Shown one piece after another: positions 37,459 to 40,253 of a stretch of 43,914 nt of DNA. Numbering within the stretch: the first letter of the stretch is position 1; every line of letters starts with the position of its first letter. Source of the stretch: Saprospiraceae bacterium (GTDB lineage Bacteria > Bacteroidota > Bacteroidia > Chitinophagales > Saprospiraceae); NCBI GenBank assembly GCA_016787345.1, contig JAEUUU010000127.1, forward strand, positions 1-43,914. The letters are read 5' to 3'. The notes beneath the pieces were generated by a model. The model did no database searches. It saw nothing but the letters and a program-made list of their open reading frames with translations, and was not told the origin of the DNA. A program made the translations under genes and the position numbers.

Positions 37459-37517
37459 AAAAGGCTTCAAACCTTGTCGGAATTTCCTCCCGTAAGGTTT
37501 GGAGCCTTTTTATTTTT
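37459..37517 (+). terminator. Strong terminator of the M28 gene
   Basis: AAAAGGCTTCAAACCTT (37459-37475) pairs with AAGGTTTGGAGCCTTTT (37494-37510), 17 positions with one wobble, and runs into TATTTTT. It lies 16 bases after the stop and 6 bases before the next gene. Confidence 0.85.
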
Positions 37518-37523: not shown

Positions 37524-39503
37524 ATGCGGGTTTTTACCGACTTGAATAAACTACCCAACTTTCGCCGTGCCGTTGTGACAATTGGCTCCTTCGATGGAGT
37601 GCACTACGGCCATCGGCTGATCCTGAGAAAAATGCACGAACTCGCCCGTAAAATCGATGGCGAGACGGTGGTCATTACCTTCGATCCGCATCCGCGCACC
37701 ATTGTGCAGGCGGGTGATCCCGATTTCAAACTCATCAGCACGACGGCGGAAAAAATTGAATTGCTGCGTGCGGAAAAAGTCGACCACGTGGTGGTAGCGC
37801 CTTTTTCGCAGGAGTTTGCCCGGCAATCCGCCGATGCTTACATCCGCGATTTTCTGGTCAATAGTTTTCAGCCCAGTATTGTCGTCATCGGTTACGATCA
37901 CCGTTTTGGCAATAACAGGGAGGGCAATCTCGACACACTGCGCGCGGCGGCGACCGGTTTTGGTTTTGAAGTGGTGGAAATTCCTGCTCAGGAAATCGAC
38001 GAAATCGCCGTCAGCTCTTCCAAAATTCGCAAGGCCCTCGAACAGGCGAATATTCAACTGGCCAACCGGCTGCTGGGGCACTCCTTCAGTTTTATCGGAA
38101 CGGTACTGCACGGCGACGGTCTGGGTCGGCAAATGGGCTTCCCGACGGCCAACCTGTCTGTCGATAATCCATACAAAATCATTCCACCGCCCGGCATTTA
38201 TGCCGCTTGCACCTGGGTAGGCGAGCGCCGTTACGATGCCATGCTGTACATCGGCGACCGGCCCACGATCGAGGGCAAACCGCAGATGCGGGTGGAAGTC
38301 AATCTGCTCAACTTTTCAGGCGACCTCTATGGTCAAATCCTGCGGGTGGATGTGCTGGATTTTATCCGCCCGGATCAAAAATTTGATTCACTGGAAGCCC
38401 TGACAGCGCAAATACAGGCGGATCAGGTTGAAATTGAAAAAAGACTGGCAGAACTGAAAAAAGCGCGGCCAGCCGACGACGTGGCAATTGTCATCCTGAA
38501 TTACAACACCCGCCGGCACCTCGAACAGTTTTTACCCTCGGTGGTCGCCCATAGCGAAGGCGCGCGTATTATCGTGGCCGACAACGGCTCGCCCGACGAT
38601 TCGATCGCTTTTTTGAGGACTCAGTATCCGAACGTGGAAGTGCTTGATTTACAAGTCAATCACGGCTTCGCCCAGGGATACAACGAAGCGCTGCGCCAAA
38701 TCGATGCCGACATTTACGTCGTGTTGAATTCCGATGTCGAGGTGACGCCCGGCTGGATGGAGCCCATTCTTGAAGCCATGCGGAAAGACGAACGAATCGC
38801 CATTGCCCAGCCTAAAATCAAAGCCTGGCGCGACAGGGAACGGTTCGAATACGCCGGCGCAGCAGGCGGCTGGATCGATGCCCTGGGGTATCCTTTCTGT
38901 CGCGGGCGGATATTCAGTTTGTCGGAGCCCGATACGGGTCAGTACGACGATCCGCAAGCCTGTTTTTGGGCCGCGGGCGCCGCTTTTTTTATCCGGGCAA
39001 AACTTTACCATGCCTTTGGCGGTTTCGACGGCGATTATTTTGCCCACAACGAAGAAATCGACCTCTGCTGGCGGATCAAACGAGCCGGATACGGTGTGTG
39101 GTGTTTCCCGCAATCGGTGGTGTATCACCTGGGCGGCGGCACGCTCGAATACGAAAACCCGCGCAAGGTGTTCCTCAATTTCCGCAACAGTCTTTATACA
39201 TTGCTCAAAAACGAAACTGCCGCAAAATTGTGCTGGCTGATTCCGGCACGATTACTGCTCGACGGTCTGGCCGGCGTGCGGTTTTTTCTGAAAGGACAAT
39301 TCGCCGCGATCGGGGCGATTGTCAAAGCGCATTTTTCATTTTACGGCAACTGGTCTGCTACGCTAAAAAAAAGAAAACAGGCGATGCAAATCATTGAACA
39401 ACAAAGTGTTGCTCCCGACATGGACCGCTCCGGCGTTTATCCGGGCAGCATCGTCTGGGCTTATTACGCCCGGGGTATCAAATCCTTCAAACGCCTTTTT
39501 TAA
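37524..39503 (+). CDS. ribF: Fusion of bifunctional riboflavin kinase/FAD synthetase (RibF) with a family 2 glycosyltransferase
   Basis: One uninterrupted 659-aa frame. Residues 1-185 are an FAD synthetase (GSFDGVHYGH at 21-30, GYDHRFGNNREG, SSSKIRKAL); 186-312 are riboflavin kinase (GDGLGRQMGFPTANL at 197-211). Together they convert riboflavin to FMN and FAD and have full RibF length. From residue 319 a complete GT2 domain follows at once (VAIVILNYNT, LNSDVEV at 401-407, HNEEIDLCWR at 508-517), like rhamnosyltransferase-type enzymes that build surface polysaccharide. The join is a short charged stretch (ELKKARPADD). GTG 38481 lies exactly at the start of the GT2 domain and could be an internal start. 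RibF is cytosolic, GT2 cytosolic or membrane-associated. Confidence 0.88.
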   Translation: MRVFTDLNKLPNFRRAVVTIGSFDGVHYGHRLILRKMHELARKIDGETVVITFDPHPRTIVQAGDPDFKLISTTAEKIELLRAEKVDHVVVAPFSQEFARQSADAYIRDFLVNSFQPSIVVIGYDHRFGNNREGNLDTLRAAATGFGFEVVEIPAQEIDEIAVSSSKIRKALEQANIQLANRLLGHSFSFIGTVLHGDGLGRQMGFPTANLSVDNPYKIIPPPGIYAACTWVGERRYDAMLYIGDRPTIEGKPQMRVEVNLLNFSGDLYGQILRVDVLDFIRPDQKFDSLEALTAQIQADQVEIEKRLAELKKARPADDVAIVILNYNTRRHLEQFLPSVVAHSEGARIIVADNGSPDDSIAFLRTQYPNVEVLDLQVNHGFAQGYNEALRQIDADIYVVLNSDVEVTPGWMEPILEAMRKDERIAIAQPKIKAWRDRERFEYAGAAGGWIDALGYPFCRGRIFSLSEPDTGQYDDPQACFWAAGAAFFIRAKLYHAFGGFDGDYFAHNEEIDLCWRIKRAGYGVWCFPQSVVYHLGGGTLEYENPRKVFLNFRNSLYTLLKNETAAKLCWLIPARLLLDGLAGVRFFLKGQFAAIGAIVKAHFSFYGNWSATLKKRKQAMQIIEQQSVAPDMDRSGVYPGSIVWAYYARGIKSFKRLF

Positions 39504-39533: not shown

Positions 39534-40253
39534 ATGAAATACGAACTTATTTACAAAGACGACGACATCCTGGTGGTCAATAAACCCGCCGGATTGCTCA
39601 CGATACCTGATCGCTTCGGCAATAAAGACAGTTTGCTCGAAGCCCTGCAAAAAGACTTTGGGCACGTACTTACTGTGCACCGCCTCGACCGCGAAACCAG
39701 CGGTATTCTCTGCTTCGCCCGCAACGAAGCGGCGCATCGCAGCCTTTCCATGCAGTTCGAGCGTCATACGACCGACAAGTTCTACCTGGTGCTGCTCGAA
39801 GGCATTTTGCACCACGACGAAGGCGAAATCGACAAACCCATCGGGGAGCACCCGACCATTGCCGGGAAAATGGCGATCAGCAACTCCGGCAAACCCTCTC
39901 TTACTTTCTATCGGGCTCTGGAGCGTTTTCGCCACTTTACATTGGCCGAAGCGCTGATTAAAACGGGACGGACACACCAGATCCGCGTGCATTTTCAAAG
40001 TATCGGATACCCACTCGCGGTGGATGCCCTGTACGGGCGTCGCCCCGCGTTTTTTTTGTCTGAAATAAAAGGAAAGGCTTATAAATCAGGAAAATACAGT
40101 GAGGAAGAACGCCCGATGATGGAGCGCACATCGTTGCACGCTTTCCGTTTGCGCATCGATCATCCGGTTACGGGCGAACGGATGGAGTTCAAAACCGAAT
40201 TGCCCAAAGACTTCAACGCTGTACTGACACAATTGAGGAAATGGGGAGTTTAG
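39534..40253 (+). CDS. RluA-family RNA pseudouridine synthase
   Basis: A 239-aa protein that isomerises uridine to pseudouridine in rRNA or tRNA. The catalytic motif HRLDRETSG (49-57) carries D52; KTGRTHQIRVHFQSIGYPLAVDALYG is the second conserved block. There is no S4 domain at the N-terminus, so it is like the shorter RluA/TruC-type enzymes rather than RluC/RluD. The exact target base cannot be told from sequence alone. It follows the fusion gene after 30 bases and may share its transcript. Confidence 0.9.
   Translation: MKYELIYKDDDILVVNKPAGLLTIPDRFGNKDSLLEALQKDFGHVLTVHRLDRETSGILCFARNEAAHRSLSMQFERHTTDKFYLVLLEGILHHDEGEIDKPIGEHPTIAGKMAISNSGKPSLTFYRALERFRHFTLAEALIKTGRTHQIRVHFQSIGYPLAVDALYGRRPAFFLSEIKGKAYKSGKYSEEERPMMERTSLHAFRLRIDHPVTGERMEFKTELPKDFNAVLTQLRKWGV

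Follow-up and report, generated by a model that had tools for sequence, protein, structure and literature searches.

The window, the whole stretch of 43,914 nucleotides that was analysed (contig JAEUUU010000127.1 of a Saprospiraceae bacterium), carries at positions 37524..39503 of the forward strand a gene in which a FAD synthetase/riboflavin kinase (RibF) and a family 2 glycosyltransferase (GT2) share one reading frame. The initial annotation offered either a recent loss of a stop codon or a lineage trait tying flavin supply to glycan synthesis as its origin. The locus raises the question of whether this composite gene is genuine, how widely it occurs, and whether its two halves work together or only happen to be made together.

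The frame runs uninterrupted from the ATG at 37524 to the TAA at 39501-39503 and contains 659 codons. Pfam searches with the encoded protein located the FAD synthetase (FMN adenylyltransferase) domain PF06574 at residues 13-166 (37560..38021; E 1e-46) and the riboflavin kinase domain PF01687 at residues 184-306 (38073..38441; E 2.8e-38). Taken as a whole the N-terminal half matched the NCBIfam model of RibF, TIGR00083, with an E value of 3.6e-75, and exceeded the cut-offs of both TIGR00083 and NF004160. In the C-terminal half the glycosyltransferase model PF00535 matched residues 322-435 (38487-38828; E 2.2e-18, 67.2 bits against a cut-off of 23.3) and PF13641 matched residues 319-538 (38478..39137; E 4.4e-13), followed by a helical part (39159..39404) with predicted helices at residues 546-563, 566-589, 593-608 and 610-627. 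Within the linker on the 3′ side of the kinase domain (38442..38480), a predicted helix (residues 290-314) ends and a loop follows. The reading of two full-length enzymes in a single frame was confirmed by these models, and the gap between the RibF and GT2 domain models, about 12 residues, was close to the 10 or so first estimated.

A profile search of the window genome, a draft of 191 contigs and 5.28 Mb estimated as 94% complete, gave one match to PF06574 and one to PF01687, both in the fusion protein. Provided that the 94% complete assembly misses none, the fusion protein should therefore be the only RibF of the organism. As in the bifunctional RibF type (TIGR00083; PDB 2x0k and 1mrz), its N-terminal half has both domains, their spacing and the conserved residues; the difference from that type is the complete GT2 enzyme at the C-terminus. 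Among 24 fused proteins of many genera, G25, H27 and H30 of the nucleotidyltransferase GxH..H motif, P207, T208, A209 and N210 of the kinase PTAN motif, and E258 were invariant, as were the GT2 residues N402-x-D404 and E510, E511 and D513 (EExD); we take those of the GT2 half to have catalytic or metal-binding roles. The NxD and EExD motifs are common to the fusion and the GT2/GT-A glycosyltransferases (PF00535, PF13641; by fold, also GlfT2 and the polypeptide GalNAc-transferases), from which the window protein differs by its N-terminal RibF.

Homologues spanning the junction, the search that the initial annotation had proposed, proved to be common. Within the genus of the window organism (37 genomes, its own included) both halves lay in one open frame in 28, of which 25 gave single spanning matches and three had longer linkers. 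One genome had separate genes, and in the remaining eight the locus was cut by contig ends, the junction was unread, or a gene gave no match. Among 298 genomes drawn from the order, a sample in which every spanning match was enumerated, 78 of the 87 family genomes yielded one match that crossed both halves free of stops; the 211 genomes belonging to other families yielded no spanning match. Seven of the nine other family genomes had separate tandem genes and two gave no close match. One of the seven (G313) seemed fused from its search row and was counted as separate, a stop being present at the junction. Two further genomes, G036, which had seemed unlinked, and likewise G988, were set aside; the two contigs of the former end inside the gene. 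Identity among the fused family matches fell to 41%. In a draw of 395 genomes from the phylum, spanning matches with an E value of 1e-110 or better were limited to five Saprospiraceae genomes, the window genome included, and none was found outside this family at that threshold. The named relatives with the fusion are all Saprospiraceae and include the isolates Phaeodactylibacter luteus and Neolewinella persica.

The draft state and incomplete coverage of the window assembly might have raised the suspicion of an assembly or sequencing artefact. This explanation is refuted by the relatives, since the same fusion occurs throughout the genus and family samples, in the two isolates and in an assembly consisting of a single contig (G209), and we give it practically no weight. 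The contrast between the family and the other families of the order is incompatible with an error and equally with a recent stop loss, so the latter proposal is abandoned. Close relatives with always separate genes, which would have spoken against the fusion, were not what was observed: most sampled Saprospiraceae are fused and some have separate tandem genes. Judged from these comparisons, the RibF-GT2 fusion is a true, old and family-wide composite gene of Saprospiraceae, and in this sense the lineage trait suggested at the outset stands.

No RibF-GT2 fusion was found in the literature searched by titles and the beginnings of abstracts. A survey of gene fusions (PMC4921024) refers to RibF, in passages on this enzyme, as a fusion of its own two domains and beside RibD. 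The initial remark that no such fusion was known agrees with both sources, and, the tables of that survey aside, the fusion appears to be without prior description in the literature searched. A plant protein in which FAD synthetase is joined to an inactivated FAD pyrophosphatase (PMC9678776) is likewise a fusion with a FAD synthetase; it differs in the organism and in the partner, which in the plant protein is part of flavin metabolism.

Outside the family the two genes are mostly found apart. GT2 homologues of about 50% identity are present in Flavobacterium, Chryseobacterium, Labilibaculum and other Bacteroidota. In the outgroup genomes for which both genes were listed, ribF and the GT2 gene were neither fused nor head to tail; they lay on different contigs or at a distance on one (about 400 kb in G055 and 9.6 kb in G048). 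The two genes are thus distant from each other in most sampled outgroup genomes. The only proximity other than head to tail was noticed in a Bacteroidia metagenome-assembled genome whose family membership is unestablished (JALHRL010000029.1, locus L121), in which some 0.7 kb separates ribF from a GT2 gene of opposite orientation, so that proximity alone is no unique trait of Saprospiraceae.

Within the family, 45 loci with separate genes were tandem pairs, ribF and GT2 being read from the same strand, and in 13 of these a start codon shared 4 bases or 1 base with the ribF stop. Two family genomes had the genes unlinked, about 81 kb apart in G732 and on different contigs in G744. Some tandem pairs were more widely spaced: L199 has a gap of about 1.4 kb, possibly an insertion; L200 has a spacer of about 220 bases that opens with short, tandemly repeated TTGAATGG-like units; and its relative L202 has a spacer of about 460 bases.

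Trees of both proteins together were built from 131 rows (72 fused, 44 separate, 11 outgroup, two unlinked and two unclassified). The fused and separate labels required 14 changes on the FastTree tree and 13 on the IQ-TREE tree; the changes forced by well-supported branches, with each label set against all other rows, were 8-9 and 11, respectively. At least 8 to 11 changes between the fused and separate states are therefore indicated by these trees, the direction of each being unsettled. The early Saprospiraceae branches were mostly separate in the FastTree tree, which suggests that the tandem order probably preceded fusion and that several fusions or fissions followed. These are trees of the two proteins themselves and not a species tree, and the outgroup branch was weakly supported; in the IQ-TREE tree, which was run without a mixture model, two separate loci (L155 and L191) stood beside the outgroup rows, making the root side weak. 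Separate loci had been deliberately over-sampled (54 of 398 genomes were chosen because their matches were split, partial or weak), so the trees yield no frequencies.

Both domains are under purifying selection, and the linker less so. Over nine sister pairs pN/pS was 0.105 for RibF, 0.115 for GT2 and 0.334 for the linker, and linker length ranged from 1 to 74 residues. A structure model from 28 aligned sequences had a mean pLDDT of 88.8 with both halves well folded; its pTM was 0.56, the domains had no firm mutual placement, and confidence was lowest at the linker. A single-sequence model (mean pLDDT 39.3) was set aside. In Foldseek searches the N-terminal half matched RibF-like structures best and the C-terminal half GT-A enzymes, the GT-A structures among the 50 best rows having 12-23% identity. 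PDB entry 3op1, annotated as a macrolide-efflux protein, matched RibF over most of its length, and its name is likely wrong.

The conserved residues, the pN/pS pattern, the variable linker and the loose domain placement fit two independent enzymes in one chain. Accordingly worded, the explanation that we regard as quite likely is that two independent enzymes are made as a single chain after tandem genes fused. The ribF gene and a GT2 gene widespread in Bacteroidota, distant from each other in most genomes sampled outside the family, would have come head to tail, and their frames would have merged once or several times and sometimes parted again, an order of events suggested by the tree. The chain would then consist of a RibF making FMN and FAD, a short flexible linker, a GT2 of GT-A fold and a C-terminal helical tail. 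From what is known of its family, the GT2 half would move a sugar onto an acceptor, probably at the inner membrane face. The halves most likely act independently; fusion would have them made together in equal amounts and may also hold RibF close to the membrane.

A further possibility was that the GT2 is also made alone from an internal start, the role proposed in the initial annotation for a GTG at 38481. This GTG is present and in frame (38481..38483, Val320), and it is one of the four codons for a commonly conserved valine. Some ATG, GTG or TTG occurs in the linker of 49 of the 74 fused loci; equal stretches of the same genes gave an expectation of 43.3, and for ATG alone the count was 14 against 12.3 expected. 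No ATG, GTG or TTG at all was present in the linkers of the other 25 loci. Linker starts near the chance frequency leave a conserved internal GT2 start unsupported, and as a conserved device it was dropped; we consider separate synthesis from such a codon quite improbable, and the GT2 of the window organism is probably made solely within the fusion.

Whether the fusion also couples the two activities, the other part of the lineage-trait proposal, has to be weighed against the same evidence. Under this explanation local flavin supply or sensing would control the GT2 reaction, or RibF would have to sit at the membrane. It would account for the retention of the fusion across a long divergence, and for the persistence of the tandem order in the unfused pairs, which outnumber by far the unlinked ones; that roughly nine in ten family genomes have kept the fusion could be a sign that coupling is selected, and not that a by-product is tolerated. 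The weakly constrained and variable linker, the domains without firm placement in the model and the repeated interchange of fused and separate states speak against coupling, and we know of no pathway common to RibF and GT2. We regard coupling as unlikely, if somewhat less so than an internal start.

In the window the fusion gene is preceded by an M28 peptidase gene and followed by an RluA-type pseudouridine synthase gene (39534..40253, forward strand; PF00849), with TerC and SRP54 genes also downstream. The rluA gene comes next after the pair in most relatives, and of 44 distinct long family loci 37 had a homologue close to the pair (32 of the 37 fused loci and 5 of the 7 separate ones). A divergent ATPase gene, presumably Mrp/ApbC-like, lies upstream of the pair in 26 of 47 family loci (two repeats among the 47) and is absent from the window. 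The genes beside the unfused GT2 vary from group to group and include some that we assume to be lipid A acyltransferase-like, OmpA-like and DNA polymerase III delta-like; no single function emerged from the neighbour clusters of the lone GT2, nor any pathway shared with RibF. An inverted repeat with arms of about 15 bases, followed by T's, was noticed at 37461-37508, ending about 15 bases before the ATG of the fusion; it probably terminates transcription of the M28 peptidase gene upstream. A scan for inverted repeats with a loop limit of 8 did not list it.

The preferred explanation, independent enzymes in one chain, has a version free of any benefit, in which the junction of an operon drifts neutrally and the fusion is kept since the fused GT2 has no start of its own. 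The overlaps of 1 or 4 bases between stop and start in the separate pairs are a small step from fusion, and the many changes of state also favour drift; the high retention within Saprospiraceae speaks against it. Retention of the frame alone is not decisive here, as loss of the frame would lose the GT2. We give this neutral version somewhat less than an even chance.

The junctions of a few relatives suggest another arrangement. In L139 and L163 (A10) and L178 (A11) a long A run precedes the ribF stop, both frames are open, and the GT2 frame has no ATG, GTG or TTG; L139 lacks a near-cognate GT2 start as well; ATT codons are present in L163 and an ATC in L178. L195, whose GT2 also lacks the three standard starts, was rejected as a candidate, as it has no A run and a CTG start is usable. 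Of three sisters of L163, two (L170 and L172) share its A10 and carry a TTG 20 bases beyond the ribF stop; the third, L171, whose ribF is truncated at the end of the contig, combines A10 with a GTG where the GT2 begins. The GT2 lies in the -1 frame relative to ribF in L139, L163, L170, L172 and L178, and by homology in L171. Runs of A9-A11 at the junction were seen altogether in ten loci (these six and L040, L056, L233 and L235), out of frame in six. Of the nine genomes of g329, four had A10, three had a fusion that lacks the run, and the other two yielded no match; all four species of g55 had A9 or A10, with the GT2 in frame in three of them and, in the fourth, in the -1 frame without a standard or near-cognate start; and A11 was present in one of three genomes of g334. 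In the window gene the longest junction A run is 6, and no such combination of run and frames occurs.

In 119 of 121 loci, with no near-identical pairs among them (L199 and L202, with junctions of more than 400 bases, were left out), sense runs of nine or more A's numbered nine in 11,764 junction bases against none in 226,344 other bases of both genes. Where the amino acids permit such a run, it was realised at 9 of 13 junction sites against 0 of 22 elsewhere. On a 30-row tree the nine loci require four changes or more, and well-supported branches force two of these, so p-values for this enrichment are overstated. In L170-L172 the run is followed in all three by 57 bases that are stop-free only in the GT2 frame, with a pN/pS of 0.64 in that frame against 1.09 and 0.84 in the others, a weak signal. 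The pS of the GT2 gene was 0.46-0.55 among these three loci and 0.79-0.85 to L163, and the A10 was identical in all four.

The A10-A11 runs between frames suggest that in a few relatives a fusion product may be formed via slippage. Such junctions resemble dnaX, where an A10 lies between two frames and is taken as a site of transcriptional slippage (PMC3711429), and slippage in A tracts is described as restoring frames (PMC3017870). Unlike in dnaX, slippage in these relatives, which do not include the window organism, would join two different enzymes, and the dnaX source cautions that neighbouring genes may look like a frameshift when they are fused in other organisms (PMC3711429). One may go further and suppose that the junction in several Saprospiraceae is a selected poly-A slip site (A9-A11) yielding both RibF alone and RibF-GT2 in each cell. 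Slippage on the run by transcription, by the ribosome or by replication (as a phase switch) would then set the amount of glycosyltransferase, and RibF would never be at risk. This proposal is tentative and rather doubtful: the A-run loci come from draft assemblies of many contigs, the standard starts in L170-L172 would be enough for ordinary separate genes, and a lysine-rich linker under weak constraint may simply tolerate such runs.

For genome annotation, the RibF records of about 660 residues from Saprospiraceae should not be taken for single enzymes. The gene pair provides a natural record of two unrelated core genes joining and sometimes parting, in which four states are represented: genes at a distance, tandem genes whose stop and start overlap, frames that differ on the two sides of a poly-A run, and fusion. 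Since Saprospiraceae has cultured members, the cost, benefit and mechanism of the fusion are measurable. The poly-A junctions of the relatives are the part most deserving of experiment; if they are indeed used, slippage in these bacteria would join two different enzymes.
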